A stretch of DNA of 64,000 nt, taken from NCBI RefSeq assembly GCF_033880585.1, contig NZ_CP137624.1:3755501-3819500 (forward strand), in the 5' to 3' direction. This DNA is from Lysinibacillus louembei (lineage in GTDB: Bacteria; Bacillota; Bacilli; Bacillales_A; Planococcaceae). The translations under genes were made by a program, and so were the position numbers. Under the pieces are notes generated by a model that saw only the letters and a program-made list of their open reading frames with translations, did not search any database and was not told where the DNA came from. Positions 17,186 through 49,317 of the stretch are shown piece after piece (the stretch's first letter is position 1; each line of letters opens with the position of its first letter).

Positions 17186-17319
17186 GATAAAGCCCCCGAC
17201 AGATGTCACAAATTTTGAAAGGAGGCCTGCACAACGCAGGTCTGTTAACCGTTGGCGCATGTATGACGCTTTTAGGTTAAAAATCCGGACGAGAGTTAGC
17301 CAAAATGTAATGGCTAACT
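17186..17319 (-). repeat. Dispersed structured repeat, copy C
   Basis: Read on the minus strand it follows the family layout. An end hairpin (AGTTAGCCA/TGGCTAACT) comes first, then CGTCCGGATTTTTAACC. A stem TTAACC/GGTTAA encloses an inner hairpin. CCTGC-type hairpin CCTGC/GCAGG follows, then CTCCTTTCAAAATTTGTGAC and the GGGGGCTTTAT block. Compared with copies A and B, several stems differ in sequence but remain paired. It sits between the cheD-orf122 terminator and sigD. Confidence 0.75.
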
Positions 17320-17441
17320 AACTCTTTTCAAATCATCAGCTCTGTAAAAAATATTAGTAATTTTCTAGACAGCCCTTATTATTACAACTATTATAACAAA
17401 TTCACACATATTTTTCATATGTACGCAGAATACTTTCTTAT

Positions 17442-17486
17442 AAAAAAAAGAACTGTTCAGAAAGTTTTCATCTTTCTAAACAGCTC
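17442..17486 (-). terminator. Strong terminator between the che genes and sigD
   Basis: A 15-bp minus-strand stem (GAGCTGTTTAGAAAG pairing with CTTTCTGAACAGTTC, with two G·U pairs) and a 7-nt loop are followed by eight T. It lies 23 bp after the orf122 stop and divides the fla/che operon just before sigD. Confidence 0.87.
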
Positions 17487-17508
17487 TCTATTTCATCAAT
17501 TAAGGAAA

Positions 17509-17877
17509 TTAGCTATTGACCATTTCATCCTCTTTATGCATCATTGTCCGTACAACCTGTGCAATATCCTCCGTGCTTTCATCAGCAAACTCAACTGTTG
17601 ATGTAGCATTTTGTTGAATAAACGGTTGATTTTCTGATGATGTGGTATCCTCAGTTTCTACGGATTCTCCACTAAACGCAATTTCTTGTGGTGTATAAAA
17701 AATATAGCCTAAAAAATAACGTAGTGGAAATGCGATGATAAAGCCAATAAATGCAACACCTAGTGCCGTTAATAACGTTGGAAGTGGCATTACAAAAGGT
17801 TTTTGAATTGCATAGATGAAATAAGCAGTAAAGCTAATTAACGCAATCCAACAATTTATTAAAATCGAACCAAGCAT
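17509..17877 (-). CDS. Small membrane protein between cheD and sigD, function unknown
   Basis: The 122 residues have two hydrophobic helices (about 4–25 and 32–55), then an acidic Ser/Thr/Glu-rich tail of about 60 residues that should face the cytoplasm or cell surface. I recognise no domain. Its start shares a base with the cheD stop (TAATG), so it is translationally coupled to cheD. It is the last gene before the terminator. B. subtilis lacks a gene here. Its location suggests a motility-associated role, but nothing in the sequence proves it. Confidence 0.75.
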   Translation of the reverse strand: MLGSILINCWIALISFTAYFIYAIQKPFVMPLPTLLTALGVAFIGFIIAFPLRYFLGYIFYTPQEIAFSGESVETEDTTSSENQPFIQQNATSTVEFADESTEDIAQVVRTMMHKEDEMVNS

Positions 17878-18374
17878 TATATTTCACTCACCCCTCGGTT
17901 CACTGTACGAATATTTAACTTGTTCGTAACAGGACTAAATTCAATTGTTCGCCCACTATTTCCACCTGTATCCTCTGCAATAAGAGGAATTTTATATTTA
18001 TTTAGTTCATTTTTTACAGCTTCTACATTGCGGGGACCAATTCGCATAGAACTTTTATCGGATGTAAATTGGAACATTTGTGCACCACCAGCGATTTTCG
18101 CCTTTAGTTTAAATGTTTGAACACCTTCTGCTTTTAACAAGTCTAATAGCGCTTTAATGCCTGTATCAGCAAATTTGGCTACATTTGTAGCATCTACTTT
18201 TCCTAAGCTCGAATCTGGAAGCATAACATGAATTAAACCAGCGATTTGTTTCGTTTCATCGTAAATGACAACACCTACACACGACCCTAAACCAGATGTA
18301 CGAATCGTGTTAGGTGCCTTTACTACATCCATTTGTGCAATACCTACTTTAACAATTGTGTCAGATGTAAACAT
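17877..18374 (-). CDS. cheD: Chemoreceptor glutamine deamidase CheD
   Basis: Deamidates receptor glutamines and in Bacillus also binds CheC to set adaptation. The 165-residue protein keeps the Cys-His catalytic pair: GLGSC at about residues 29–33, followed by IAGLIHVMLPDS with His near 49. The C-terminal RIGPRNVEAVKNELN and TGGNSGRTIEF are also typical. It begins one base after the cheC stop. With CheC directly upstream, the CheC-CheD adaptation loop is complete. Confidence 0.96.
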   Translation of the reverse strand: MFTSDTIVKVGIAQMDVVKAPNTIRTSGLGSCVGVVIYDETKQIAGLIHVMLPDSSLGKVDATNVAKFADTGIKALLDLLKAEGVQTFKLKAKIAGGAQMFQFTSDKSSMRIGPRNVEAVKNELNKYKIPLIAEDTGGNSGRTIEFSPVTNKLNIRTVNRGVSEI

Positions 18375-19007
18375 TTAGGATACACCTAACACTTTAAAAA
18401 TTGTTGCGAATGAATCTGGGTCTGGTAACAAAAAGAAATGCCCATGAACAGCTTCAGAGATAGCGATATCTTCTTCAAAAATGGATGTATTAATAACGAT
18501 AACATGATCGCTTACTTGAGATAATTCAATTAATCCTGTACTAATAATAGCGCCAAACATGTCAACACTTAACCCTGGCACAGTCGGATAAATTTTTAAT
18601 TTAGTAAAATCTGATAGTGCAGATAGATAGGAGCCTGATAAAATATTGCCCATTTCCTGCATCGCAGATAGCGCAAGCTCCGACACGGGGGCTTTATAAA
18701 AATCAAACGTCTCATCATGAATTAAACGTTGAATAAAGCGGTTTGCTTGTTCAATCGGCAGAATGAAAAACATGCTGCCTTCAACATCTCCTTCAATTCT
18801 TAAGAAAACGCCCACAACAACTGTTTCAGAGCCCCCTGCTAGCTCCATCATATGGTCAAATGTCACCATTTCGACCTTAGGTACTTGCATATCAATTTTT
18901 TTGCTTAACAAATCCGACAGTGCAGTTGCTGCATGTGCAGCACCGATATTTCCAATTTCCTTTAATACATCTAAATGCAACGAAGTAATTTTTTGATTGA
19001 AATTCAT
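18375..19007 (-). CDS. cheC: CheY-P phosphatase CheC
   Basis: Dephosphorylates CheY-P and binds CheD. The 210 residues contain both phosphatase helices: EIGNIGAAHAATAL (about 16–29) and EMGNILSGSYLSAL (about 115–128). Each has the Glu/Asn pair required for activity. Start ATG 19007 has AGGG upstream. It is adjacent to cheD and preceded by a hairpin that separates it from cheW. Confidence 0.96.
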   Translation of the reverse strand: MNFNQKITSLHLDVLKEIGNIGAAHAATALSDLLSKKIDMQVPKVEMVTFDHMMELAGGSETVVVGVFLRIEGDVEGSMFFILPIEQANRFIQRLIHDETFDFYKAPVSELALSAMQEMGNILSGSYLSALSDFTKLKIYPTVPGLSVDMFGAIISTGLIELSQVSDHVIVINTSIFEEDIAISEAVHGHFFLLPDPDSFATIFKVLGVS

Positions 19008-19027
19008 TCATATCCCTACTTTAGTAG

Positions 19028-19054
19028 CCTCTAAATAGCAAAAGCTATTAGAGG
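19028..19054 (-). other. Intercistronic hairpin between cheW and cheC
   Basis: Stem CCTCTAA-TAGC / GCTA-TTTAGAGG closes on a tiny AAAA-type loop and has no U run after it. It cannot be a standard terminator. An mRNA processing or stability role is possible, as it is the only such structure within the che genes. Confidence 0.45.
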
Positions 19055-19061
19055 CGTCATT

Positions 19062-19508
19062 TTAGCTTAACGGATTTAATACTTTGTCTAAATGCAATAA
19101 AATTAATAAACGATTGTCTAACTTAGCAACACCTGAAATAAACTCCTCTTCTAAAGAACCTACAACTTCTGGTTGTTGCTCAATAGAGCCTGCAGCGATA
19201 TCTAATACGTCATTAGCAGAATCAACAACAAAGCCTACTTCCATATCTTCCAACGTAATAATAATGATACGTGCTGCATCCTCTTCACCTAAAATCGGTA
19301 AATTAAAACGTTCACGTAAATCAATAATTGGTGTAACAACGCCACGTAAATTAATAACTCCTTTTACATAGGCAGGCGTTTTAGGTACACGCGTAATATG
19401 CATTAATTTTTCAATTCCTTGCACATGTGATACTGGAATCGCATATTCTTTATCTGCTAATTGAAAAACAATTACTTTAATATATTCTTGTTCAACAGCA
19501 TTTGTCAT
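19062..19508 (-). CDS. cheW: Chemotaxis coupling protein CheW
   Basis: Links receptors to the CheA kinase. It is a single CheW domain of 148 residues: VIVFQLADKEYAIPVSHVQGIEK, then TRVPKTPAYVKGVINLRGVVTPIIDLRERF with the conserved Asn-Leu-Arg-Gly and Arg, and a C-terminal LDKVLN. It lies 24 bp downstream of cheA. Confidence 0.97.
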   Translation of the reverse strand: MTNAVEQEYIKVIVFQLADKEYAIPVSHVQGIEKLMHITRVPKTPAYVKGVINLRGVVTPIIDLRERFNLPILGEEDAARIIIITLEDMEVGFVVDSANDVLDIAAGSIEQQPEVVGSLEEEFISGVAKLDNRLLILLHLDKVLNPLS

Positions 19509-19532
19509 AGTTTACACCTCTTCTTATCCTTA

Positions 19533-21578
19533 TCACTTCATTAGCGCATTACAATCAACAATTAATGCTACTTTTCCGTTTCCTAAAATTGTTGCACCTG
19601 AAATTGCAAAAATATTTGTTAAATAATTTCCTAAAGATTTCAATACGATTTCCTGCTGTCCGATAAAGGAATCAACAACTAAACCAGCAAGTTTTTCGCC
19701 TTTACGTACAATTACAACAGAATAGAATTCGTCATCCTGTGCTTCTGTACGTGGAACTTCGAAAATTTCATCTAAGAATACAAGCGGTACGACTTTACCA
19801 CGGAAGTCAATTACTTTTTGATTATGTGCATTCAAAATGTCTGAATGACGGATAATAGATGTTTCAATAATTGACGATAAAGGTACTGCATAAATTTCTT
19901 TTTCGATTTCTACAAGCATTACAGAGATGATTGATAGTGTTAATGGCAGTTGAATAGAGAATGTTGAACCAACACCTTCAGTCGAGTCAATGGAAATATT
20001 TCCACCTAATGATTCGATTGTTGTTTTTACAACATCCAGCCCTACACCGCGACCTGAAATATCAGAAATAACATCTGCTGTTGAGAAACCGGAAGCTAAA
20101 ATCAGCTCATTAATTTGTTTATCTGACAATGTTTTGGCTGTTTCTATCGTAACAATCCCTTTAGAAATAGCTTTTTCTAATACTTTGTCACGGTTAATGC
20201 CTGCACCATCATCTTCAATTTCAATAAATACATAGTTTCCACTATGGAAAGCACGTAGCTGTACAGTTCCTTCTTCAGGCTTCCCTTTGGCAATACGCAC
20301 TTCAGGACTTTCAATACCGTGGTCAAGTGAGTTACGAATTAAATGCACAAGCGGATCACCGATTTCATCGATAACAGTACGATCTAACTCTGTTTCTGCC
20401 CCAATAATTTCTAAATTAATTTTCTTATTTAAGTCGCGTGATAATTGACGTACCATTTTCGGGAAACGATTAAATACTGTTTCAACTTGTACCATGCGCA
20501 TTGTTAAGACGATATTTTGTAAATCTCCCATTACACGGCTCATACGTTCTACTGTTTCATTTAATTCTTGATGATTCACTTCTGCAGAAATCGATTGTAA
20601 ACGACCACGGTCAATCACAAGCTCTTCAAACAGATTCATTAAAATATCAAGGCGCTCGATATTTACGCGAATCATTTTATTCGAAACATGACCACCAGAC
20701 TTACTATTAGATGCTGGTGCCTTGGCATTTTTAGCTGGTACTTCCGCCACTGCTTTTACCGCTAATTCTGGCTGTGGCTCTGCTTCAACAACCTCTACTT
20801 TTTTCTCTGACTGTACATCTTTTTCTTCTAAAGGTACGACTTTTACTTCTTCTACTTCAGAAACCTTCATTAATTTCTTTTGTAAATCATCGGCAGGTTC
20901 TTTTGAAATATAGGCAATATGGAATACTTGGTCAAATTGTTCATCCTCTAAACGATCAACTGCTGGAACAGATTTAATGACATCTCCGTTTTTTTCTAAA
21001 ATCTCGAATACCATGAAAACACGCGCTGCCTTTAATAAGCAATCTTCACGTAATGTCACCGTAATTTCATATGCTGAATGCCCTTGCTCGATAGATTGTG
21101 CTAACACTGTTTTTTCAAAATCATCATAATCTAAATGCGATTCTTGTTGAATTGCTGTTGCTGCTATTTCTTCTGCTGCGGCAGGCTGGCCTACTTCCTC
21201 ACCTGCTTCAATGCGCTTTAACTTCTCCACTGTCGCCTGTACATCGCGCTTACCGTCGCCGCCCTCTGCAATGTTCATTACCATTTCCTCTAGATGATCA
21301 ACAGACTCAAACACAACATCTAAAATTTCTGGCGTTACTTCAATTTTTTCATTGCGAATAGCATCTAAAACATTTTCCATTTTATGTGTCAAATCCGCTA
21401 AATCCTCAAAGCCCATCGTTGCAGACATACCTTTCAATGTATGAGCTGAACGGAAAATTTCATTAACAATTGATAAATCTTGTGGATTCTTTTCTAATTC
21501 TAATAAATGTTCACTACATGACTGTAAATGTTCTTTACTTTCTTCGATGAACATTTCTAAATATTGATTTACTTCCAT
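19533..21578 (-). CDS. cheA: Chemotaxis histidine kinase CheA
   Basis: Central kinase of chemotaxis; it autophosphorylates and passes phosphate to CheY and CheB. In 681 residues the order is: P1 HPt domain with SAHTLKGM (phosphorylated His near 46); a P2 response-regulator docking domain (about 155–245); an Ala/Lys/Pro linker; P3 dimerisation (IRVNIERLDILMNLFEELVI); the P4 ATPase (HLIRNSLDHGIE, DDGAGI, DISGRGVGLD); and a P5 CheW-like domain. Start ATG 21578 has AAAGGGGTG upstream. It follows cheB by 14 bp. Confidence 0.97.
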   Translation of the reverse strand: MEVNQYLEMFIEESKEHLQSCSEHLLELEKNPQDLSIVNEIFRSAHTLKGMSATMGFEDLADLTHKMENVLDAIRNEKIEVTPEILDVVFESVDHLEEMVMNIAEGGDGKRDVQATVEKLKRIEAGEEVGQPAAAEEIAATAIQQESHLDYDDFEKTVLAQSIEQGHSAYEITVTLREDCLLKAARVFMVFEILEKNGDVIKSVPAVDRLEDEQFDQVFHIAYISKEPADDLQKKLMKVSEVEEVKVVPLEEKDVQSEKKVEVVEAEPQPELAVKAVAEVPAKNAKAPASNSKSGGHVSNKMIRVNIERLDILMNLFEELVIDRGRLQSISAEVNHQELNETVERMSRVMGDLQNIVLTMRMVQVETVFNRFPKMVRQLSRDLNKKINLEIIGAETELDRTVIDEIGDPLVHLIRNSLDHGIESPEVRIAKGKPEEGTVQLRAFHSGNYVFIEIEDDGAGINRDKVLEKAISKGIVTIETAKTLSDKQINELILASGFSTADVISDISGRGVGLDVVKTTIESLGGNISIDSTEGVGSTFSIQLPLTLSIISVMLVEIEKEIYAVPLSSIIETSIIRHSDILNAHNQKVIDFRGKVVPLVFLDEIFEVPRTEAQDDEFYSVVIVRKGEKLAGLVVDSFIGQQEIVLKSLGNYLTNIFAISGATILGNGKVALIVDCNALMK

Positions 21579-21592
21579 ATGAAGGCACCCCT

Positions 21593-22729
21593 TTAGTACA
21601 TATATTTCATAATTGTTTGTGCGATATCCTCTACGTCTACCACTTCATCGACAAGCTGTGTTTCTACTGCTGCTTTTGGCATACCGTAAACGATACAAGT
21701 ATCCGCAGATTCAGCAATTGCTCTTACATTACCTGATTTTTTTAATTCTTTTAAACCGTTTGCTCCATCTTGACCCATACCAGTCATAATCACTGCTACT
21801 TTATCCATATCAGGACAATTACTAACATCCTCAAACATCACGTCTACTGATGGACGGTGACCCGATCTTGGTGGCTCTGTCTGATCAAGCACAATCCCAT
21901 AGGTCGTTCCAATTTTACGAAGCCTTAGATGATACCCGCCTGGTGCAATATAGGCAACGCCATCCTTTAAAATATCACCTTGTTCTGCTTCTTTTACATG
22001 AATATTACTTAATTGATCTAAACGATTTGCTAAAGATTTTGTAAAGCCTGCTGGCATATGTTGCACAATTAAAATTGGTGCACGAACGTTTTCAGGAATT
22101 TTCGTAATCACTTCTTGCAATGCACGGGGTCCTCCTGTGGATGTGCCAATTAAAATAATTTTTCTAGATGTCCTGCTCCACTCTTTCTTATTTGGGAGTG
22201 TTGTTAACTCTACCGGCTGCTGCTTTTTGATTGTCGGTGGCGGCGTATTCAATGATTTCTCTACTTTCACTACTTCTTTTCTGTGAATCGGTTTCATCGG
22301 TCTTTTCAACTTCGTAACAGAGATGTTCGCAGCAGCTTCTACTTTTTGAACTAATTCCTCTTTAATTTTATGTAAATCAAGAGAAATGGTACCGCTCGTT
22401 TTAGCAACAAAATCTACAGCGCCATACTCCATTGCTGCTAACGTATTTTCCGTGCCTTGCTTTGTTGTGCTTGATAGCATCACTACAGGCACAGGACATT
22501 GATTCATAATTTCTCTTAAGGCATCTAAGCCATTCATTTCAGGCATTTCTACATCCATTGTGACAACATTTGGTTGCAGTTGTTGTATTTTTTCAATTGC
22601 ATCTTTCCCATTGCGCGCTGTTCCCACCACTTCAATATTTAAGTTCCCATCAAAAAAGTCGCCAACTAGCTTTCTCATAAAAGCCGAATCATCTACAATA
22701 AGCAACTTTTTCTTATTTGAAAATCTCAA
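21593..22729 (-). CDS. cheB: Protein-glutamate methylesterase CheB
   Basis: Removes methyl groups from receptors when phosphorylated. The N-terminal receiver domain (LLIVDDSAFMRK, phosphorylated Asp in TMDVEMPEMNG near residue 60, and a Lys in VAKTSG) joins a C-terminal esterase. The esterase catalytic residues are in GTSTGGPRAL (Ser), QHMPAGFT (His) and MTGMGQDGA (Asp). The start appears to be TTG at 22729, directly after the flhG stop, with AAAGG about 10 nt upstream. A later ATG would cut into the receiver domain. Confidence 0.95.
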   Translation of the reverse strand: MRFSNKKKLLIVDDSAFMRKLVGDFFDGNLNIEVVGTARNGKDAIEKIQQLQPNVVTMDVEMPEMNGLDALREIMNQCPVPVVMLSSTTKQGTENTLAAMEYGAVDFVAKTSGTISLDLHKIKEELVQKVEAAANISVTKLKRPMKPIHRKEVVKVEKSLNTPPPTIKKQQPVELTTLPNKKEWSRTSRKIILIGTSTGGPRALQEVITKIPENVRAPILIVQHMPAGFTKSLANRLDQLSNIHVKEAEQGDILKDGVAYIAPGGYHLRLRKIGTTYGIVLDQTEPPRSGHRPSVDVMFEDVSNCPDMDKVAVIMTGMGQDGANGLKELKKSGNVRAIAESADTCIVYGMPKAAVETQLVDEVVDVEDIAQTIMKYMY

Positions 22730-26807: not shown

Positions 26808-26830
26808 TACTTTCCCTCCTGAATCGGTAC

Positions 26831-27919: not shown

Positions 27920-27920
27920 G

Positions 27921-28697: not shown

Positions 28698-28700
28698 CTT

Positions 28701-28970: not shown

Positions 28971-28983
28971 TATGTATCATCCC

Positions 28984-30314: not shown

Positions 30315-30318
30315 TCTA

Positions 30319-30681: not shown

Positions 30682-30702
30682 AATTAATTCCTCCAATTTA
30701 AA

Positions 30703-33648: not shown

Positions 33649-33701
33649 ACAATGAATTCCCCCTACTACTTTTAGAAGTAGGTGATTATAAATAAATCAA
33701 A

Positions 33702-35155: not shown

Positions 35156-35167
35156 CTACACACCACC

Positions 35168-35890: not shown

Positions 35891-35892
35891 TT

Positions 35893-37092: not shown

Positions 37093-37111
37093 TTTTTCAC
37101 CTCCTCTCAAA

Positions 37112-37714: not shown

Positions 37715-37718
37715 GACA

Positions 37719-39493: not shown

Positions 39494-39498
39494 CCGTA

Positions 39499-40299
39499 TC
39501 AGTCCTTGCTTGTTAAAATTTCATTTAGCTTCAAACGTAGTTCATTGAGCTGTTCATCAATCGATACAACAATACGTCCATGATTCGTTTCAATATAGCT
39601 TTCTGTGCTATTTAAATCTTCATTTACAAAAAACAGTAAAGGCACATCTGGTGGGAACATCTCAGCTAGTTCATCATAGTTTTTGGTAATGAGTTGATAA
39701 TAGACTGGTGCAACATATACTTTGATTTCTTTCATTTCTCGCGCTTCTTTTAAGCCACGTTTGACGATTTCAGTAAATAGTTCATTGTCTCGTTCAAGTG
39801 CTACACCAATAATTCGTTCAGCAGCAGTTAAAGCGAGCTCTAATACAACAAATTCTTGATCATCAATATACTTTTTCGCATTTTGCTGCGCCTGTGTGAT
39901 TGTTTCATTGGCCATTGTAAGCGACTGTTCCATCGCAGCATTAGCTTTTTGTATCCCTTCCTCATAGCCAGCAGCAAAGCCCTCTTCATGCGCTTGTTGC
40001 TCAAGCATGAGCTTTTCCTCTTGCCAAATTTGCTTCAATTGCTCGATAGCTTGTAATTGCTCATCTCGATATTGCTCTAGCTGTTGACGCTCGAACTCAA
40101 TTTGTTGTCTCGCCTCAGTTAAATACATTTCCCGCTCTGCCTGAATATTTTCTAATGTTAAATTTTCAAGTTCTCCTGCCTGAGCATCTGTTTGAAAAGC
40201 TGTTGGCTGAAAAAAATCTTTAATTTCGATTTTAACGCCTTGCTCTGCTTCAGTTGACTGTGCTTGTATAGAGCGAATAATTCTAGACAATGACGTCAT
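39499..40299 (-). CDS. fliH: Flagellar assembly protein FliH
   Basis: Negative regulator and membrane anchor of FliI. About 266 residues: an N-terminal SRIIRSIQ, a Gln/Glu-rich coiled coil (about 45–110) with AAGYEEGIQKANA in place of the GxxxG-type run, and the C-terminal FliH domain (VVLELALTAAERIIGVAL, HGRIVVSIDEQLNELRLKLNEI). The start is uncertain: ATG 40299 is used, but GGAGGAG is better spaced (9 nt) from a TTG at 40290–40292 just downstream. The gene overlaps the fliG end. Confidence 0.88.
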   Translation of the reverse strand: MTSLSRIIRSIQAQSTEAEQGVKIEIKDFFQPTAFQTDAQAGELENLTLENIQAEREMYLTEARQQIEFERQQLEQYRDEQLQAIEQLKQIWQEEKLMLEQQAHEEGFAAGYEEGIQKANAAMEQSLTMANETITQAQQNAKKYIDDQEFVVLELALTAAERIIGVALERDNELFTEIVKRGLKEAREMKEIKVYVAPVYYQLITKNYDELAEMFPPDVPLLFFVNEDLNSTESYIETNHGRIVVSIDEQLNELRLKLNEILTSKD

Positions 40300-41296
40300 C
40301 TCCTCCACCGCGAGCTATAATGATTTCTCCAGCATCTTCTAAGCGTCGAATAACCGCTACGATGCGAGACTGTGCGTCCTCTACATCTCGTAAGCGTACT
40401 GGCCCCATAATTTCCATCTCTTCTTTAAACGTTTCTGCCATACGCTGTGACATATTACGGAAAATAATATCTTTTACTTCATCAGAAGAAACTTTCATTG
40501 ATAATAGTAAGTCTTCATTTTCGCAGTCGCGAATAACACGTTGGATTGAACGGTTATCAAGCGTAACGATATCTTCGAATACGAACATGCGCTTCTTGAT
40601 TTCTTCTGCCAATTCTGGATCTTGAATTTCGAGTGCATCCAAAATTGTTTTTTCCGTTTGACGATCCACTCCGCTAAGTACTTCTACGACAGCGTCAACG
40701 CCACCAGTTTCAGTGTAATCTTGCGTTACAGTAGAAGATAGCTTACGCTCTAAAACAGATTCAATTTCACTAATTACTTCTGGTGATGTTGAATCCATCA
40801 TTGCAATACGCTTTGCAATATCCGCTTGGACCTCTTGAGGTAATGAAGATAAAATAATTCCTGCTTGCCCTGCTTCTAAATAAGATAAAATTAAAGCGAT
40901 TGTTTGTGGATGCTCATTTTGAATAAAGTTGAAAATTTGAGCTGGATCTGCTTTACGTGCAAAATCAAACGGTCTCACTTGAAGCGATGACGTTAAGCGA
41001 TTTAAAATTGCTTGCGCTTGGTCACTGCCTAATGCTTTTTCTAAAACTGTTTTTGCATAGCCAATACCGCCTTGTGTAATGTAATCTTGCGCTAATGCAA
41101 TATTGTGAAATTCCTCAATAATTTCTTCCTTCATATGTGACTCTACTTTTTTAACACTGGAAATTTCTAAAGTTAAGCGTTCAATTTCCTCTTCACTTAA
41201 ATGTTTATATACTGAAGCTGACACTTCTGGTCCCAATGAAATTAAGAGTAGGGCAGCTTTTTGCTTCCCTGATAATTCCTTGTCTTTCTTAGACAT
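40283..41296 (-). CDS. fliG: Flagellar motor switch protein FliG
   Basis: C-ring torque protein. The 337 residues begin KDKELSGKQKAALLLISLGPE and include the middle EHPQTIALILSYLEAGQAGIIL (armadillo EHPQ motif at about 125). The C-terminal torque helix contains the charged residues of VFEDIVTLDNRSIQRVIRDCENEDL. Start at ATG 41296 with GGAGGGG; the longest frame begins six codons earlier. Repeat copy A begins only a few bases upstream of this SD. Confidence 0.96.
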   Translation of the reverse strand: MSKKDKELSGKQKAALLLISLGPEVSASVYKHLSEEEIERLTLEISSVKKVESHMKEEIIEEFHNIALAQDYITQGGIGYAKTVLEKALGSDQAQAILNRLTSSLQVRPFDFARKADPAQIFNFIQNEHPQTIALILSYLEAGQAGIILSSLPQEVQADIAKRIAMMDSTSPEVISEIESVLERKLSSTVTQDYTETGGVDAVVEVLSGVDRQTEKTILDALEIQDPELAEEIKKRMFVFEDIVTLDNRSIQRVIRDCENEDLLLSMKVSSDEVKDIIFRNMSQRMAETFKEEMEIMGPVRLRDVEDAQSRIVAVIRRLEDAGEIIIARGGGDDVIV

Positions 41297-41310
41297 AGCC
41301 ACCCCTCCAA

Positions 41311-41475
41311 TCAATTACGCCTCGGCGTAATTGCGTCCAGATTTTTCGAGTGAGCCGTCACACCCTGTGACAACGGTTAACTGGCCTGCTTAGTGCAGGC
41401 CTCTCTTCAAAATCTATGACATCCGCCGGAGGCTTTATTTTGATTCAGTGAGCCTTCGGATGCCCACTGAATTAC
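41311..41475 (+). repeat. Dispersed structured repeat, copy A
   Basis: Begins TCAATTACGCCTCGGCGTAA (perfect 9-bp inverted end hairpin AATTACGCC/GGCGTAATT). It continues with GCGTCCAGATTTTTC, hairpin GTCACA/TGTGAC, AACGGTTAACT, hairpin GGCCTGC/GCAGGCC, then TTCAAAATCTATGACATCC and the GGAGGCTTTAT block. It ends with hairpin ATTCAGTG/CACTGAAT. It fills the fliF–fliG gap, which is only a few bases in B. subtilis. Orientation is opposite to fla/che transcription. Confidence 0.8.
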
Positions 41476-41532
41476 ATGCTACTTAAATATTCATATTGCT
41501 ATCAATAGAAATTGACGTCTACCGAGTCAAAA

Positions 41533-43125
41533 TTAATCCTCAGCAATCCAACTACGTAACAACTTGGCAAAATCATCTGGTTTTTCTTTTGCCATTTTTT
41601 CTAGCTGCTTACGACGCACTGTTGCTTCTGTTTCTTTTTCATCAGCAATATCATCAACAATAATTTGTTCTTGTTGTTCTTCAATCGCTGATAGTTCCGC
41701 CTCTTCTTTACGTTTGCGAGAACGTAAAATATAGAATACTAAAAGTACAATTGCAACTAATAATACGCCGCCAATTACCCAAACCCACCAAGGAATTGCT
41801 GTTGTTTCTGTATCTACTGCAACGTCTTTTCCATAGAATTGCTGTACTGTAACAACAACTTTACTTGCAACCTCTTCATCTGTTAAATCACCTACTGCAT
41901 CTTTATTAAGCGATGTGCTAATAATAGATGCTAACATTTCTCGAATCGCCGCCACACTTTCATCTGGCAATGATGCTAAATCTTCTGGGTTTGGTGGCTC
42001 TACACCAACTTGAATACCAATATCACGAATTTTATAAGGTGACTCCTGAATATCTTTGCGAATACGATTTACATCGCTATTTACTTTTTCTTCGATTCGT
42101 TCATAATCACCATTTCCTGCAGCACCCTCTACATAATCTGTGAAATTATCTGTCTGTTGTCCTGCTTCTGGTGTACCAGTTGCCGTAGCTCCAGTTCCAG
42201 TATATGTTTCTGTAATAGTTTGGGCGCTAATCGCAATTCCTGACATATTTTCTTCATCAACAGGCTCTACAAGATCTTCTTGACGATTTTCCTTTTTAAA
42301 GTCAATATCCGTTGTCACAGATACAAACACTTTATCTTGTCCCATCAATGTACCTAACATATTTTGGACTTGGCGCTGTAAATCACGTTCAACCGTTTTC
42401 TTCAGCTGCATTTGTCCTTCTGGAGTCGCTACTGAACCACCAGACGTAGCTGATTCCAAATCATAATATTCCATATGCTGATTTGAAATTTCAATATTTT
42501 CTAATGGTAAATTAGGCACGCTTTTTGCTACTAAGCTGTATAATGTTTTAATTTGAGTTTCTGTAAATTGATGTCCAGGTGCTGTAGTTAACATTACAGC
42601 CGCTGTTGCTTCTCCTTGTCCATCCTGTAAAAAGACACCTTGCTTTGGCATTGTAATATTTACCCGGGCACCTTCTACCCCATCAACTTGTTTTAATAAA
42701 TTTACAATAGCTGTTTGCATTGTCTCGTTTTTCAACACTTCGAATTCATTATCAGTCATCCCAAACCCTGCATTTTCAGCAAAAAATGATGTGTCAATTC
42801 CACCGGTTTTCGGAAATCCTTGATTTGCCAAAGATACTTTTAATGCATCTGCTTGCTTTGCTGGCACTAAAATATTTGTACCACCTGCTGTAATTTCGTA
42901 TGTAACACCATCCGCCTCTAAAACATCTCTAATTTGCCCAACTTCAGCCTGTGATAAATTCGTATACATCGGGACCATTTCTGTGCGTGTTAAAAGATAT
43001 GTAAGGATGCTTGCAAATGCAATAATTACTACCAGTGCACCGACCATCGCGCCTTTTTGCTTTTTTGTACGACTTGACCAAAAATTGGTCGAATCGGTTT
43101 TTACTTTTGTTAATCGTTCATTCAT
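41533..43125 (-). CDS. fliF: Flagellar MS-ring protein FliF
   Basis: Forms the membrane ring that founds the basal body. The 530 residues have an N-terminal membrane helix (about 24–46), the YscJ-type ring domains (LSQAEVGQIRDVLEADGVTYEI, ARVNITMPKQGVFLQDGQGEATAAVML) and a large periplasmic part. A second helix (WWVWVIGGVLLVAIVLLVFYIL near 450) precedes a cytoplasmic FliG-binding tail. ATG 43125 has GGAGG 9 nt upstream; 12 codons of the longest frame are dropped. It is flanked by repeat copies on both sides. Confidence 0.95.
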   Translation of the reverse strand: MNERLTKVKTDSTNFWSSRTKKQKGAMVGALVVIIAFASILTYLLTRTEMVPMYTNLSQAEVGQIRDVLEADGVTYEITAGGTNILVPAKQADALKVSLANQGFPKTGGIDTSFFAENAGFGMTDNEFEVLKNETMQTAIVNLLKQVDGVEGARVNITMPKQGVFLQDGQGEATAAVMLTTAPGHQFTETQIKTLYSLVAKSVPNLPLENIEISNQHMEYYDLESATSGGSVATPEGQMQLKKTVERDLQRQVQNMLGTLMGQDKVFVSVTTDIDFKKENRQEDLVEPVDEENMSGIAISAQTITETYTGTGATATGTPEAGQQTDNFTDYVEGAAGNGDYERIEEKVNSDVNRIRKDIQESPYKIRDIGIQVGVEPPNPEDLASLPDESVAAIREMLASIISTSLNKDAVGDLTDEEVASKVVVTVQQFYGKDVAVDTETTAIPWWVWVIGGVLLVAIVLLVFYILRSRKRKEEAELSAIEEQQEQIIVDDIADEKETEATVRRKQLEKMAKEKPDDFAKLLRSWIAED

Positions 43126-43604
43126 TATGGATCCTCCGGTAATAGTGAATGCTATAAACAATTACGCCTTTGCGAATATTTGTTCAATTTTTAACCTGTG
43201 CTTTTTATCAGGAACTTTAACTTGATTGAGCTAAATTTAAATGCCTGCTGAAATGCGCTAGTTTTGTCACTCTACAAGCTTAGGCTTTATGTACTTAACG
43301 CATCCATTTCGTCATAAAATCATGTGCTAAATCAAGACGAATTTTTTCGTCATAATTGTTTTTTGATTCAACAATGTATTTTGTACTGAAAGCATAGCAA
43401 TAGGTACAGAAAGCTTTGACCTCGACAAATGACGAGATACATATTTCATTAGCATTTACTTCAGCAGATATTTAAACATTTGCTGAATCAAAATAAATCT
43501 TTTGGTGAATGTCACAAATTTTGAAAAGAACCTGTACGACGCAGACTACTTTCTGCGCCGTTAGCTCCAAAAATTTGAAAAATCATTAACCGAGGCGTAA
43601 TTGA
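43126..43604. other. Expanded intergenic region between fliE and fliF
   Basis: No open reading frame of note is present. It holds repeat copy D next to fliE and a decayed repeat start near fliF (from about 43159, CAATTACGCCTTTGCGAATA). Between them lie about 230 bp of AT-rich DNA with no feature I recognise. In B. subtilis fliE and fliF are nearly adjacent. Confidence 0.6.
43159..43230 (+). repeat. Decayed fragment of the dispersed repeat
   Basis: CAATTACGCCT at the left and TCAATTTTTAACC correspond to the first modules of copies A and B. The remainder has only a small CCTG/CAGG hairpin in the place of the GTCAC/GTGAC stem. Only the orientation and first module are clear. Confidence 0.4.
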
Positions 43605-43605
43605 T
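43461..43605 (-). repeat. Dispersed structured repeat, copy D
   Basis: On the minus strand it starts TCAATTACGCCTCG right at the fliE stop codon. It lacks the second arm of the end palindrome and has hairpin CGCAGA/TCTGCG after AACGG. It keeps TTTTCAAAATTTGTGACATTC and ends with hairpin TTCAGCA/TGCTGAA. That last stem replaces CAGTG/CACTG of the other copies with CAGCA/TGCTG, a paired change. Orientation is the same as fla/che transcription and opposite to copy A. Confidence 0.7.
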
Positions 43606-43913
43606 TATACACTCATTCGCATAATTTCTTGGTAAGCTTCAACCACTTTATTTCGAACTTCCATTGTGGCATTTAGTGTGATACTCGCTTTTTGTGAAGC
43701 TATCATTACCTCATGTAAATCCACATCGCCACCATTAATTAATTTATTCGTCAATGTGTCGGATTGAATTTGTTGCGCATTCACTTGTGCAATTGCGTCC
43801 TTTAATGTTGCCGCAAAATTTTGCTGCGCCTCGTAAGGTGTTGCTGTTAACTTATTAGCTTGCTGTACTCCTTGTGTTTGAGTAAACATTGATATGGAGT
43901 TAATCATCGCCAT
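43605..43913 (-). CDS. fliE: Flagellar hook-basal body protein FliE
   Basis: Connects the MS ring to the rod and is the first export substrate. The 102 residues end in the family motif HEVMIASQKASITLNATMEVRNKVVEAYQEIMRM. The gene is complete; its stop codon abuts repeat copy D. It follows flgC by 27 bp. Confidence 0.95.
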   Translation of the reverse strand: MAMINSISMFTQTQGVQQANKLTATPYEAQQNFAATLKDAIAQVNAQQIQSDTLTNKLINGGDVDLHEVMIASQKASITLNATMEVRNKVVEAYQEIMRMSV

Positions 43914-43940
43914 GTTTAATCACCGTTCCTTTCAAATTTG

Positions 43941-44402: not shown

Positions 44403-44404
44403 AC

Positions 44405-44797: not shown

Positions 44798-44860
44798 ACT
44801 ATCCACCTCTTTTAATATATAGGGTATTCGTCACATTTCGATAATAGTTTTGTTAGTTTA

Positions 44861-44889
44861 ATTGTAATTAAGTTAATCCATAGTGTCTA
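44861..44889 (-). promoter_or_regulatory. Sigma-A promoter of the fla/che operon
   Basis: Minus-strand TAGACA (44884–44889), 17-bp spacer, TACAAT (44861–44866); both hexamers match consensus at five of six positions. The predicted transcript starts about 57 nt before flgB. Confidence 0.65.
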
Positions 44890-44950
44890 TTGTCTTTTAG
44901 CTTTTTTAGATAGTCTATAAGAACTATTTTATTCCATTTCTTTCTCTTCA

Positions 44951-44977
44951 TTATCGAAAAATCAAAATGGATTTTTA
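44951..44977 (-). promoter_or_regulatory. SigD (sigma-28) promoter of the fla/che operon
   Basis: Minus-strand TAAA (44974–44977), exactly 15 bp, then TTCGATAA (44951–44958). This compares with the Bacillus SigD consensus TAAA-N15-GCCGATAT at six of eight −10 positions, including the CGAT core. It lies upstream of the sigma-A site, the same two-promoter arrangement known for B. subtilis flgB. Confidence 0.6.
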
Positions 44978-45154
44978 TGTAAAATATCATTTTTTTACTT
45001 CGTTACGATAAATATTACCAAAAAATCTACATTAATCACTATGTTTCATTTAAAAAATAAATCAATAAGACTATTTTTAGCACCAGACTGTTAGGACTAT
45101 GTAAAAAATAATTTATATTAAAATGTATAAAATCTTTTCTTCTTTTAATAGAAC

Positions 45155-45197
45155 AATAAAAGTGGCTGTTTAAAAGTGATATCACTTTTAAACAGCC
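45155..45197 (-). terminator. Terminator of codY (perfect 34-nt palindrome)
   Basis: GGCTGTTTAAAAGTGAT is followed at once by its exact complement ATCACTTTTAAACAGCC (45164–45197). On the minus strand ACTTTTATTG follows. The stem is 17 bp with essentially no loop in the DNA. An RNA would form about 15 pairs. Confidence 0.75.
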
Positions 45198-45214
45198 TAT
45201 AACGAAAACGCTTT

Positions 45215-45994
45215 TTATTTCATTTTAATTTCAGCTAATGCAACTAAAAATTTATCGTTCAATACTTTAATATAAGTACCTTTCATCCCAAGTGAGCGCG
45301 ACTCAATTACACCAGCAGACTCCAGCTTGCGTAATGCATTGACAATAACTGAACGAGTAATACCTACGCGGTCTGCAATTTTTGAAGCAACAAGTAGCCC
45401 TTCGTGACCATCTAACTCCTCGAAAATATGCTCAATCGCTTCAAGCTCAGAGTATGATAATGAATTAATCGCCATTTGCACAACAGCTTTTGAACGAGCC
45501 TCTTCTTCAATTTCCTCAGCTTTTTCACGTAAAATTTCCATGCCGACTACTGTTGCACCATACTCAGCTAAAATTAAATCATCATCGCTAAATTGATCGT
45601 TAATACGTGCAAGGATTAACGTCCCTAAACGCTCTCCACCACCAATAATTGGAACAATCGTTGTTAAACCAGATGCAAATAAATCTTTATTTTCAACAGG
45701 GAACGCTGTATGTTCATTATTTACATCTAAGTTTGGCGATGTTTCTGTAATATTAAATAAGTTTTGTGTATACTCCTCTGGGAATTGGCGCTCCGCAAAC
45801 ATTTTTTTAATACGCTCATTTTCGATTTGCTGGTGAATTGATAAACCTAAAAGCTTCCCTTTACGACTTACGATAAAGACGTTAGAGTCGATAATGTCAC
45901 CTAACGTATCCGCCATTTCTTTAAAGTTTACTGGCTTACCAGCAGTCGCTTGAAGCATTGCGTTAATTTTTCTTGTTTTTGATAATAAATTCAT
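45215..45994 (-). CDS. codY: GTP- and branched-chain-amino-acid-sensing repressor CodY
   Basis: Global regulator of nutrient limitation in Bacillota. The 259 residues start [15 protein letters not shown], followed by a GAF domain that binds isoleucine/valine ([23 protein letters not shown] onward). The winged helix-turn-helix near the C-terminus contains [44 protein letters not shown] precedes the ATG. It follows xerC-hslV-hslU as in B. subtilis. A possible own promoter lies upstream. Confidence 0.98.
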
Positions 45995-46035
45995 TTTCTA
46001 TAGTCCTCCTAAGGCTATTTCTGTATTTACGTAAT

Positions 46036-46064
46036 ATTCTAAAGGTTTTTATAATTTATAGCAA
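46036..46064 (-). promoter_or_regulatory. Candidate promoter for codY
   Basis: Minus-strand TTGCTA (46059–46064), 17-bp spacer, TAGAAT (46036–46041). It lies in the 127-bp hslU–codY gap, with the transcript starting about 35 nt before the codY ATG. The −35 is only a 4-of-6 match, so codY may depend mainly on read-through from xerC. Confidence 0.4.
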
Positions 46065-46121
46065 TTATCTATGTTTTAAATATTGTAAAGACTTCTACAT
46101 TTTTTCATGAAATAACATTTG

Positions 46122-47507
46122 CTATAAAATAAATTGTGATAAATCTTTATTTTTCACGATATTTCCTAGTTTTTGCTCAACATATGCAGGGGTAATTTCA
46201 ATATGTGCTGGTGCAATTTCAGAAGCTTCAAATGATAGCTCCTCTAATAGGCGCTCTAAAATTGTATGCAAGCGTCTTGCACCAATGTTATCTGTTTCTT
46301 GATTAACTTCTGTTGCAATTTCAGCAATGCAATCAATCGCTTCATCTGAAAATTCAATTGTTACATTTTCCGTTTCTAGCAAGGCTTTATATTGCAAAAT
46401 AAGCGATTGGTCTGGCTCTTGTAAAATGCGGACAAAATCTTCCTTCGTTAATTTTTCCAGTTCCACACGAATTGGGAAACGCCCTTGCAATTCCGGAATT
46501 AAATCACTCGGCTTTGACATATGAAAAGCACCTGCTGCAATAAATAGCATATAATCTGTTTTTACAGGACCATATTTCGTCGTTACAGTAGAACCTTCTA
46601 CGATTGGCAAAATATCGCGCTGTACACCCTCGCGTGAAACATTTGCTGAAGAGCCGCTGTCTTTGCTTGCAATTTTATCAATTTCATCAATGAAGATGAT
46701 ACCTGTCTGTTCAGCGCGCTGAATCGCTTCTGCTGTTAGTTCATCTGTATCGATTAATTTGTTGGCCTCTTCCAACGTTAAAATACGACGTGCATCTTTT
46801 ACTTGCACTTTGCGCTTCTTTGTTTTCTTTGGCATTAAATTCGCCAACATATCCTGCATGCCGCTCATTTGCATTTCCATTCCTGGCATATCCATTAATG
46901 GTGCTGCTTGCTCCATGACCTCGATTGTTACCCACTGGTTTTCAAGCTTACCTTGTGCTAAATCCGTTGCAATCTGACTGCGACGGGAGCTTATTTCTGC
47001 TTCTTCCGCCGGATTTTCCTGCTCAGCTTGCTCTTGCTTTTGTCCAAAAAGCATTTCAAATGGATTTTGCTGCATTTTCGCCTTCTTTTTTGAAGGTGCT
47101 AGCAATTTCACAATCGCTTGGTCTGCCAGCTTTTCTGCCTCTTCCTTTACAGTTGCTAACATTTCTTCTTTAACAAGGCGTAACGAAGCCTCTACCAAGT
47201 CCCGTACCATTGATTCTACATCGCGTCCAACATAGCCTACTTCTGTGAACTTTGTTGCTTCCACTTTAACAAATGGCGCTTTTGTCAGCTTCGCAATACG
47301 TCTTGCGATTTCCGTTTTTCCAACACCTGTTGGACCAATCATTAAGATGTTTTTCGGGATAATTTCACTTTTCATTTCATCGTTCAGTAAAGAACGGCGA
47401 TAGCGATTACGCAGTGCAATTGCTACTGCACGCTTTGCCTCATTTTGCCCAACAATGTGACGATTTAAATGTTCCGTAATTTGTCTTGGCGTTAAGTTTG
47501 TCGTCAT
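46122..47507 (-). CDS. hslU: HslU/ClpY ATPase of the HslUV protease
   Basis: AAA+ unfoldase that feeds HslV. In 461 residues, Walker [16 protein letters not shown] lies near 57–71 and the pore loop GYVGRD near 93. An inserted I domain is rich in Lys/Glu/Met (about 140–235), and Walker B is [11 protein letters not shown]. The C-terminal DLSQFIL is the tail that activates HslV. Its ATG overlaps the hslV stop by one base. Confidence 0.97.
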
Positions 47508-48049
47508 TATAGCGCCTCCACGATAATATTATGATTTGTAAATACACAAATATCAGCAGCTGTCGTTAAAGCTGCCTCTGCAATTTGCTGTGCCGTTAAA
47601 TGCTCCCCTGCATGTTGCTTCAATGCGCGACCCGCAGATAATGCATAATTACCACCTGAGCCAATCGCTAAAATACCATCATCTGGCTCAATGACTTCTC
47701 CTGTCCCTGAAACAAGAAGCAAAGTAGATTTATCCATTACAAGCAACATTGCTTCTAATTGACGCAACATTTTATCACCGCGCCATTGCTTAGCTACCTC
47801 AACAGCTGCACGTTGTAAATTACCATTATACTCGTTTAACTTACCTTCAAACATTTCAAATAAAGTAAAAGCATCTGCTACTGACCCAGCAAAGCCTGCT
47901 AATACGTTGCCATTAAACAGACGTCTGACCTTTCTTGCTGTATGTTTCATCACAACTGCATTTCCTAACGTTACTTGACCATCACCAGCCATTGCACAAC
48001 CACCTTTATGATGGATTGCAAAAATCGTCGTTGCATGTATTTGCCCCAA
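47507..48049 (-). CDS. hslV: HslV/ClpQ peptidase of the HslUV protease
   Basis: Proteasome-like peptidase. The 180 residues contain [48 protein letters not shown], and GTGEVI with [16 protein letters not shown]-like residues ([17 protein letters not shown]). The start codon is TTG (48047–48049) with AAGGAGG 7 nt upstream. The first residues are MGQIHATT, so removal of Met leaves Gly rather than the Ser of B. subtilis ClpQ or the Thr of classic HslV. The active nucleophile would need further trimming to a Thr of ATT. Confidence 0.95.
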
Positions 48050-48061
48050 ATAGATTCCTCC

Positions 48062-48961
48062 TTAAGCTCTTGGATGTGTATTCATATACGTTTTACGTAA
48101 ATGCTCCTTCGTCACATGTGTATATACTTGTGTCGAGGAAAGATGTGCATGTCCTAATAGCTCTTGTACAGTACGCATATCTGCACCGTTATTTAATAAA
48201 TGTGTAGCAAATGAATGTCTTAGCATATGCGGATAAAGCTTTGTATGCAAGCTAGCTTTATTTACCATCTCATTTAGTATATGACGTACACCTCGTGGCG
48301 TAAGTTCGCCACCTCGCATATTGACAAAAAGATAAGAATGCTCCGTCTTTTTCATTATATGTGGTCGCGCTTCCTCAATATAGGTTTGCAGCGCTGTACG
48401 TGCATATTCACCAAACGGTACAATGCGCTCCTTACGCCCTTTCCCCATAACGCGAAGTATCGAATAATGGAAATCGATATTAGATAGTTCCAATGCCGTA
48501 CACTCGCTTACTCGAATACCTGTTGCATAAAGCAGCTCCAGCAAAGCGATATTGCGCAGCGATTGAAAATCTTGCCCTTGATTCGCTTCAAATAGTTGTG
48601 TCAGCTCTTCCTCATAAAAAAAGTTTGGAAGTCGCTCCTCTTTTTTCGGGTGATACAATGATCGAAAAGATGAATCGTCCAAATCAAATTCTCTATGCAA
48701 AAAGCGGAAGAAGGAGCGAATAGCAGATATTTTTCTTGAAATAGATGCTCTTGCTTTTTTCTCATCATAAAGCTTTGTCACATACAATCTTGCATGAATA
48801 TATTCAACATCTTGTAAACTTTTAATACCTTCCGTTTGTAAAAACGTCAAAAAATGCTGAATATCAGTCTCATATTCCCGCACTGTATGTACAGAAAAGT
48901 TTTTTTCAATTTGCACATAGCGAATAAACTGATGCAGCCACTCATTTTGCTGATTTGACAT
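48062..48961 (-). CDS. xerC: Tyrosine recombinase XerC (CodV)
   Basis: Resolves chromosome dimers at dif together with XerD. The 299 residues have an N-terminal SAM-like DNA-binding domain (WLHQFIRYVQIEKNFSVHTVREYETDIQHF). The catalytic domain has Arg in ATGIRVSE, Lys in GKGRKERIVPF, HMLRHSFATHLL (His-x-x-Arg) and the nucleophile Tyr in STQVYTHV. It is first in xerC-hslV-hslU-codY, the normal Bacilli order, so it is the housekeeping enzyme, not a mobile-element integrase. Confidence 0.96.
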   Translation of the reverse strand: MSNQQNEWLHQFIRYVQIEKNFSVHTVREYETDIQHFLTFLQTEGIKSLQDVEYIHARLYVTKLYDEKKARASISRKISAIRSFFRFLHREFDLDDSSFRSLYHPKKEERLPNFFYEEELTQLFEANQGQDFQSLRNIALLELLYATGIRVSECTALELSNIDFHYSILRVMGKGRKERIVPFGEYARTALQTYIEEARPHIMKKTEHSYLFVNMRGGELTPRGVRHILNEMVNKASLHTKLYPHMLRHSFATHLLNNGADMRTVQELLGHAHLSSTQVYTHVTKEHLRKTYMNTHPRA

Positions 48962-49045
48962 AACATAGCCTCCTTAAGCGGAGCAAATTAATTACATACT
49001 GACACTATACCGTAACTCCAAAATTAGCAAGTAAAATATGCGTAA

Positions 49046-49073
49046 ATTTTAAAAAATCAATGGATTTTGTCAA
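49046..49073 (-). promoter_or_regulatory. Candidate sigma-A promoter for xerC-hslVU-codY
   Basis: Minus-strand TTGACA (49068–49073, perfect), 16-bp spacer, TAAAAT (49046–49051). It lies between repeat copy B and the xerC start, giving an 80-nt leader. Confidence 0.5.
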
Positions 49074-49124
49074 TTGCATGACAAGCAGTCGTAAGACACC
49101 ATAATTTTTTACATATCATCTAAA

Positions 49125-49317
49125 TCAATTACGCCTCCGCGTAATTGCGTCCAAATTTTTTCAAGCTTGTTTGCAGTAGAAGTTCACCTAAAGCCGTCAC
49201 TTCCTGTGACAACGGTGAACTGACCTGCATCGTGCAGGCCTCCTTTTCAAAATCTGTGGCCTCCACCGAAGGCTTTATCTCGGTGCAGTGGGTATCCAAC
49301 CACCCACTGCACTAAGT
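49125..49317 (+). repeat. Dispersed structured repeat, copy B (longest)
   Basis: End hairpin AATTACGC/GCGTAATT is followed by GCGTCCAAATTTTTTC. Stem TTCACC (49183–49188) / GGTGAA (49214–49219) encloses hairpin GTCAC/GTGAC. Hairpin CCTGCA/TGCAGG follows, then CTCCTTTTCAAAATCTGTGGC, CGAAGGCTTTAT, and hairpin GTGCAGTGGG (49283–49292) / CCCACTGCAC (49303–49312). Copy A has ATTCAGTG/CACTGAAT in the last stem. An extra module, GGCATTCATCCCC, follows at 49326 and recurs at 11967. It lies between trmFO and xerC. Confidence 0.8.

Follow-up and report, generated by a model that had tools for sequence, protein, structure and literature searches.

The 64,000-nucleotide stretch of the Lysinibacillus louembei genome analysed here (the window) contains four intergenic repeats whose stems differ in sequence while staying paired, and raises the question of whether such changes mark a folded RNA kept by selection or mobile DNA. 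The original prediction described a scattered family of modular repeats, akin to MITEs or BOX elements, in which base changes are paired. This observation was right: each repeat represents a small mobile DNA element that carries no gene, is built of swappable hairpin modules and measures about 100-360 bp. The copies and remnants in the window, with matches to a covariance model (CM), are the following.

41312-41533, plus strand: copy A, with a left hairpin at 41312-41333 followed by a CGTC tag at 41334-41337, then an inner stem, a hairpin module, the GGAGGCTTTAT block and a right hairpin, the outer arm of which reaches about 41533, an end set from arm complementarity with one mismatch; alignment and CM match 41310-41481, 97.8 bits, E 7.2e-23.
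49126-49375, plus strand: copy B, with a left hairpin at 49126-49147 followed by a CGTC tag at 49148-49151, then a module, the GGCTTTAT block (49271-49278) and a branched right hairpin, ending at a CCAAGGT/AAAA boundary (49375 by eye, from the outer arm); CM match 49124-49320, E 2.6e-17.
49172-49238, plus strand: the module at the centre of copy B, identified as Rfam RF01690 (Bacillaceae-1), 64.4 bits against a gathering score of 35.
17186-17319, minus strand: copy C, with variant left hairpin (17294-17319), module, GGGGGCTTTAT block and a degenerate right hairpin, none being intact; CM match 17149-17306, E 1.4e-5.
43360-43603, minus strand: copy D, with damaged left hairpin, degenerate module and right hairpin, outer arm near 43362-43375; CM match 43450-43605, E 2e-10.
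11931-12009, plus strand: degenerate copy, a left end (71% identity to that of copy A) and a right-end remnant; CM E 0.0043.
43156-43193, plus strand: left-end remnant, 68% identity to the copy A left end, absent from the CM matches.
52890-52999, minus strand: degenerate copy; CM E 0.012.

The common layout proposed for copies A-D held, as all four align and a CM trained on 28 short copies from outside the window recovers every one of them; the arm pairs quoted for their stems were all found in the sequence. The four copies are real, but A, B and D extend further to the right than first given, because their last hairpins have outer arms beyond the stated ends; these ends were placed by eye through arm complementarity, and the outer arms of A and D also appear in a separate listing. 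The left hairpin of C is different and its right one not intact, and the left hairpin of D is damaged. Copy C is shared with a same-species genome (locus L105). Among the degenerate pieces, those predicted at 11935 and 52865 are weakly supported by the CM, and that at 43159 is a repeat of the left end only. As predicted, no ORF of at least 80 aa lies wholly within copies A-D; the start codon of the minus-strand ORF 40283-41314 overlaps copy A by three bases, the stop of ORF 41533-43161 abuts its right end, and ORF 43605-43913 has its stop two bases from copy D. Folded as RNA, the whole of copy B gave a z of -5.97, while DNA folding of pieces gave -5.26 for A, -4.31 for B, -2.37 for C and -2.70 for D.

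Searching the whole genome with a CM, the check proposed with the prediction, led to neither of the adverse outcomes named for it, few copies or no covariation. The genome holds at least 47 non-overlapping CM matches at E<=1e-3 (59 matches at E<=0.01, and 51 BLAST pieces matching copy B), and copies occur in other Planococcaceae, namely Sporosarcina, Lysinibacillus, Solibacillus and Psychrobacillus. Plasmid and phage collections searched with one short copy gave no match, and among the papers listed from the open-licence literature none was recognised as describing the family. In the aligned stems 96.8% of cells were paired, and 23 of 38 pairs were altered on both sides; helix 1 was paired in 99.3% of cells and helix 4 in 92.3%, which corresponds to subterminal hairpins at both ends.

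Such strong covariation would be expected if the copies were a conserved structured RNA, regulatory or non-coding, with its fold kept by selection and its dispersal secondary. The kind of mismatch speaks otherwise. For resident copies, the left and inner stems had G-T no more often than A-C (14 and 15), unlike the stems of control tRNAs (87 and 7, in the 86 of 100 distinct tRNAs that end in CCA). The view that the paired changes reveal a selected RNA fold is not supported. Right-end stems, with 24 G-T to 4 A-C, are contrary to the others and favour an RNA, in a set filtered for at most one arm mismatch and with related copies counted repeatedly. The 26 distinct Bacillaceae-1 modules showed no RNA-type pairing constraint in their small numbers (6 G-T, 7 A-C); against shuffles they had 14 pairs with two-sided changes vs. 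11.6 (9 of 500 shuffles as high) and 34 further pair types vs. 31.0 (61 of 500 as high), two weaker measures that stood out less from shuffles than the others did. The participation of host flank in pairing is a further point against an RNA. An RNA gene was rejected as the main reading, and we consider it unlikely, since wobble mismatches are symmetric in the left and inner stems and insertions are polymorphic between strains.

The module of copy B deserves separate consideration, its listing by Rfam as an RNA being another argument for that reading. The suggested comparison with Rfam did match one module, and RF01690 in copy B was the sole match in the window at gathering scores, copies A, C and D not reaching the cut-off. 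Bacillaceae-1 occurs in 55 of 250 sampled Bacilli genomes, and the elements described here give this orphan Rfam family a context. Outside the elements, the module is also found in other repeats and in rRNA/tRNA operons (28 loci were considered, five of them unplaced at contig edges; 16S leaders were read in 13 of 15, two on the minus strand being excluded). In ten rRNA/tRNA-context loci judged by eye, it lay in the transcribed orientation in nine and opposite in one (L281), as an RNA would, whereas its orientation is opposite in different elements (copy B vs. G023:2118286), as an RNA would not. The central module of copy B behaves here as an exchangeable hairpin cassette.

Evidence on how the copies came to their sites was sought at junction level in 25 locus pairs between the window's genome and the same-species genome G041, pairs partly picked for want of a matching element locus in the other genome; four gave clean empty sites. 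The target is AT/AAA (TTT/AT on the reverse strand): AT stood at the left flank of 205 of 220 distinct left ends (background 9.4%). Right ends were readable by the rule used for 113 of the 220, some orthologues in both genomes being counted twice, and host AAA flanked 58 of 71 elements of the AT class and 26 of 42 of the TT class (background 3.8%). The locus pair L072/L228 was set aside as ambiguous, its flank duplicating the first 20 element bases, and L012, L019 and L025 were read as rearrangement or partial deletion instead of clean insertions. An empty site for the TT (TTAAC) class was looked for in Sporosarcina with seven tags, four copies aligned and two junctions read, and the flanks were too diverged; at one such locus (L225) the relatives L264 and L265 read AAATAAAA or CAATAAAA at the site, which is suggestive only.

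Since AT-class copies have AT on both sides (terminal in 63/71, left flank in 64/71), they would, taken alone, also be compatible with a 2-bp AT duplication, as made by the DDE transposase of a conventional MITE, and their being short, non-coding and multi-copy suits such an element. The TT class, with terminal TT in 33/42 and left-flank AT in 39/42, therefore has no target duplication; by inspection, the ends are not mutual inverted repeats (left tip CAATTACGCC vs. reversed right tip ATCTTGGTTCAG and variants), and DDE elements would not be expected to follow the replication strand. Terminal inverted repeats and a duplication at every insertion, the marks of a DDE-type MITE, were thus not found, and a MITE of this type appears improbable. 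Junction bases differed from the empty site in three of the four clean cases, a point against the transposition preferred below, as a precise mechanism would not predict it. Single-base changes of this kind recall a coupling sequence and, together with the same target motif, they would agree with a bcr1-like element that enters TTTAT motifs through site-specific recombination, whether or not it shares an origin with bcr1; to this we likewise assign a low probability, as both the end hairpins and the strand bias in orientation are more in keeping with single-strand transposition.

Two comparisons of orthologous loci concern what happens after insertion. At one site (L099/L229) the module is present in one genome and absent in the other, a difference resembling conversion, and the repeats might be thought to spread passively through gene conversion between copies, with no transposition at all. 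This is highly improbable: the four clean empty sites, all at a fixed target, show new insertions, which conversion between existing copies cannot produce, and they largely refute it. In another single orthologous insertion (L005/L091 vs. L057) an internal arm differs and matches the host flank, which fits template-switch correction of hairpin arms.

The orientation of the copies follows replication. From 49 CM matches at E<=1e-3, two overlapping better ones and two near the origin or terminus were dropped, and the target-first strand lay on the lagging-strand template in 35 of the 45 copies used (p 2.5e-4, one genome), as in 26 of 32 copies at E<=1e-7 and 24 of 27 at E<=1e-12 (p 4.9e-5). The intergenic TTTAT motif is unbiased by strand (283 vs. 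292), with a mild bias when coding DNA is included (1997 vs. 1551). Transcription direction could account for part of the orientation: in the gene context of 30 sites, 17 have neighbours on both sides that run with the fork (14 of these sites fit) and only three lie between genes against it (two fit, the third being near the terminus). Where the flanking genes converge or diverge, 9 of 10 sites agree with fork direction. Overall, empty sites, target specificity and replication-strand bias point to insertions of mobile DNA and not mainly to a conserved RNA.

An enzyme for this mobility was sought among Y1 genes, matches to which occur in four of five genomes of the genus. No transposase with matching ends was found among their Y1 loci: a RAYT-like Y1 gene is bordered by other repeats (GTGCCTGGCAC), an IS200-like copy has different ends, and genome G001 holds 29 element pieces and no Y1 match. 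With tblastn, neither of the two Y1 proteins encoded in the window's genome had a homologue in the loci searched beyond the known Y1 loci. In the search for an autonomous copy, 158 of 199 distinct left ends have a downstream right block within 4 kb, within 200 bp in 156 cases and at 430 and 1,293 bp in the other two (L203, L038); the remaining 41 have none in the sequence covered.

On the target-first strand, the one starting with the T-rich target, the inserted element reads TTT/(AT or AA) followed by the arm ...GACG-CAATTACGCC-GGCGTAATTG/AT. One end has a long hairpin with an inner arm complementary to the element tip and the flanking TTT, and the other a 10-bp hairpin. This strand would move as single-stranded DNA from the lagging-strand template, as IS200/IS605 elements do, with a Y1 (HUH) type transposase acting in trans as the candidate enzyme. 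Changes in the arms may arise partly by template-switch correction, and the modular build of the family would come from loops in which hairpin cassettes, Bacillaceae-1 among them, can be inserted or exchanged. The copies are, in our judgement, probably non-autonomous mobile DNA elements of this IS200/IS605-like kind, with single-strand transposition by a trans-acting Y1 (HUH) enzyme, template-switch arm correction and swapped cassettes. A wider reading is put forward tentatively, as a possibility we hold with some doubt: that a modular family of transposons moving as single-stranded DNA exists in Planococcaceae with no transposase gene of its own resident there, that its stems are kept paired mainly by template switching, sometimes with host flank, and that its loops dock hairpin cassettes. 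Bacillaceae-1 would then be not an RNA gene but one such cassette, which spreads across Bacilli by way of repeats and of rRNA/tRNA operons.

These results are a warning that palindromic mobile DNA can give rise to covariation, which is usually taken to prove that an RNA is functional. Strain pairs with filled and empty sites offer a direct test of single-strand transposition without a known transposase, and suit the testing of cassette exchange in hairpin loops.

Several known systems share features with the family. Rfam treats Bacillaceae-1, matched by the copy B module, as a free-standing RNA, whereas the elements described here carry it as an exchangeable part of mobile DNA that may point either way. 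Its table row in PMC2864571 reads 'Y n n'. By description, the bcr1-bcr3 group of Bacillus cereus shares the size class, the tens of copies per genome and the TTTAT motif, the reverse strand of the AT/AAA target here (PMC6542083 and PMC3446304); it differs in being reported as restricted to the B. cereus group (PMC6542083). CGTC-tagged REPs likewise have a palindrome followed by CGTC and no known dedicated transposase (PMC3733652); their pattern is a stem of 8-9 bp with a loop of 4-5, mostly in head-to-head dimers, whereas here the palindrome belongs to a larger element, its stem has 10 bp and its loop 2 nt (alternatively 9 bp and 4 nt), and the copies read are not head-to-head dimers. The listing of this tag covered 80 of 120 pattern loci. 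BOX elements of pneumococcus share the modular order, with end modules around variable inner modules, and differ in target, hairpin ends and orientation.

Non-autonomous IS200/IS605-type elements, also called palindrome-associated elements, resemble the family in several ways: they lack terminal inverted repeats, carry a hairpin at each end, insert 3' of a fixed T-rich target that is retained at one flank, contain an internal sequence complementary to the target and are oriented by replication strand. The target is TTAC in IS608 (PMC5934647) and TTGAT in ISDra2 (PMC2806898), and the orientation of IS608 is reported to follow the replication strand (PMC6006769). The present family differs in that no cognate transposase gene or autonomous copy was found, in a guide that is continuous with a long end hairpin including the element tip and is not a separate tetranucleotide, and in hairpin cassettes that nest in its loops.

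The family of non-autonomous mobile hairpin elements is real. Copies A to D in the window, predicted to belong to a dispersed repeat family with one shared layout, could be aligned with each other, and all four were recovered by R1, a covariance model built from 28 short copies outside the window (E-values 7.2e-23 for A, 2.6e-17 for B, 2e-10 for D and 1.4e-5 for C). The right ends originally assigned to A, B and D had to be moved further out, since extra branches in the last hairpin precede the outer arm. In the single 3.96-Mb contig of the L. louembei genome (G000; window at 3755501-3819500), BLAST with copy B retrieved 51 pieces, and the proposed genome-wide collection by covariance model yielded many further copies, with at least 59 R1 matches at E ≤ 0.01, a lower bound given that 150 of 2159 candidates were scored. 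Copy A found matches in 11 of 41 genomes, G000 included, with 24-35 pieces in each of four genus genomes and 38 in G017. At least 120 stretches of named genomes carry the exact left-end pattern, and the matches listed include Sporosarcina, Lysinibacillus, Solibacillus, Metasolibacillus, Psychrobacillus, B. ndiopicus and one Arthrobacter-labelled genome. Many copies of this Planococcaceae element family (L113, L126, L127 and other REN13 loci) lie in a genome titled Arthrobacter beigongshangensis, a label that looks doubtful. R1 matched 13 of 250 sampled Bacilli genomes, ten from the window's taxonomic family, two from another (G068, G167) and one weakly (G113). Plasmid and phage collections gave no match to one short copy, and no published description of the element family was found in the literature searched.

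Read from the CAATTACG end, the layout is AT/CAATTACGCC-tc-GGCGTAATTG (slashes mark element boundaries or insertion points), then CGTC, followed by the inner stem CCAGATTTT...AAAATCTG-t-GAC and by ATCCGCCGGAGGC; the right part has TTTAT or TTAA and an arm, next the variable loops and the arm complementary to the first, and finally AT or TT/AAA. The inner stem of short copies holds a small hairpin only, whereas longer copies bear a Bacillaceae-1-like module in the inner stem, just before the right arm or at both places, together with further hairpins that nest in loops. Element lengths concentrate around 120-139, 180-199 and 220-259 bp, and no ORF of at least 90 aa spans an element in the 30 copies checked in G000. 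The Sporosarcina loci L145, L151, L152, L172, L173 and L184 contain a second cassette, AATCGAACAGCGAAGGGTTCGATTTGCC...GCAGAAATTAAGGCACTT and variants of it, which nests in element loops or in those of the Bacillaceae-1 module.

Pairing was seen in 96.8% of the 1041 cells from the 28 short copies (29.7-41.0% with slid partners), with two-sided changes at 23 of 38 pairs (shuffles 9.4, sd 1.7); a set of 26 distinct Bacillaceae-1 modules, drawn from many genomes, was 95.0% paired (slid control ≤39.3%), with 132 two-sided and 4 one-sided cells. Because of these paired fractions and two-sided changes, the stem pairing put forward in the original prediction is real in element and module alike; what causes it is a separate matter. 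G-T and A-C cells numbered 23 and 30 in the left hairpin (130 elements) and inner stem (123), 14 and 15 in the 28-copy alignment, and 6 and 7 in the 26 modules, against 87 and 7 in the acceptor and T stems of 86 tRNAs from the loci analysed. Decay of resident copies therefore seems to lack RNA's one-sided mismatch tolerance. The right-end stems, with 24 G-T versus 4 A-C, are evidence against this reading.

The module of copy B is the only Rfam match in the window at gathering scores (Bacillaceae-1, RF01690; 64.4 bits). Of 250 Bacilli genomes, 55 contain RF01690, and frequently many copies of it (with 19 candidates per genome scored). Placement was possible for 23 of 28 loci; these lay in apparently several different repeats and, for 10 loci, in rRNA/tRNA operons. 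It was present in one of six 16S leaders read in G189 and in three of seven in G037, where it replaces another hairpin, and its orientation within elements varies (copy B versus G023:2118286). These varied repeats and operons, patchy leaders and variable orientation suit an exchangeable hairpin cassette. One locus pair (L099/L229) has an element once with and once without the Bacillaceae-1-like module. Among the rRNA/tRNA-context copies, 9 of 10 were judged by eye to lie in the transcribed direction, behind which an RNA role or replication bias could stand. The mobile hairpin element family thus has an orphan Rfam RNA among its modules. At L281, L282 and L303-L316, Bacillaceae-1 lies directly 5' of 16S rRNA in a subset of one genome's rRNA operons, in place of other leader sequence or another hairpin; L286 has several Bacillaceae-1-like units in tandem.

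For mobility, 30 loci of a conspecific genome (G041) were compared with G000 loci, followed by junction-level inspection of 25 locus pairs. Clean insertions with an empty site in the other genome were found in 4 of the 25:

L073/L102, clean filled/empty pair by junction reading
L008/L104, clean filled/empty pair by junction reading
L013/L237, clean filled/empty pair by junction reading
L026/L242, clean filled/empty pair by junction reading

The T-rich strand shows TTT/AT (TCT/AT at one site) and then T at empty sites, and TTT[AT...AATTG]AT at filled ones; junction-adjacent bases differ between filled and empty sites in L073, L013 and L026. The left flank was AT at 205 of 220 distinct left ends (background 9.4%), and AAA formed the host flank of 58 of 71 AT-class copies and of 26 of 42 in the TT class (background 3.8%). 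Since TT-class copies mostly end in TT, not AT (33/42), no duplication occurs in that class. The 199 left ends yielded no recognisable gene-bearing copy, 41 of them lacking a right block in the stretch examined. At L077 (G041:C15) one element starts directly at the apparent right end of another, as if AT/AAA of the resident copy had been used as target. About 700 bp of G000 at L019, which contain one element copy and probably some coding sequence, are missing at the aligned place in G041 (L240).

Genes for Y1 transposases, the HUH-type class of IS200/IS605 elements, were located as follows:

L066-L070, RAYT-like and IS200-like Y1 loci (G000:2022515 and 2322177; G041, G002, G003)

The IS200-like gene is full-length and single-copy in G000. 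The RAYT-like gene occurs in 4 of 5 genus genomes searched (G000, G041, G002, G003) and adjoins a putative leuS, recognised by eye, in four genus genomes; GTGCCTGGCAC palindromes lie near it. The flanks of both genes are unlike the element ends, and G001, a genus-mate, has element copies yet no Y1 match.

In G002, another genus-mate, locus L057 has internal TTTAT and host flank ATATA; the orthologous insertion in G000 and G041 (L005, L091) has internal TATAT with the same flank. By sequence comparison the arm in L005/L091 probably changed to match host DNA, the arm being taken as the altered part because TTTAT is the family norm. Template switching at replication, which can create and repair stems (PMC8794818), may be the route.

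The element probably moves by IS200/IS605-type transposition, by analogy with elements that likewise have no inverted-repeat ends, carry hairpins at both ends, make no duplication, and have a fixed T-rich target on one side with an inner arm complementary to it; insertion 3' to TTAC is reported for IS608 (PMC5934647) and 3' to TTGAT for ISDra2 (PMC2806898). Under the IS200/IS605 model, elements would be oriented with the lagging-strand template. With the G000 origin near 1.08 Mb and terminus near 2.97 Mb (GC skew, 39 sampled stretches), the target-first strand lay on the lagging-strand template in 35 of 45 copies (p 2.5e-4) and in 24 of the 27 best preserved (p 4.9e-5). TTTAT strand counts are unbiased in intergenic DNA (283 vs 292) and stand at 1997 vs 1551 with coding DNA included. 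Sites flanked by convergent or divergent genes followed the prediction in 9 of 10 cases, those between genes running against the fork in 2 of 3 and those between genes running with it in 14 of 17. The family closely resembles IS200/IS605-type non-autonomous elements, and also bcr1, in how it behaves.
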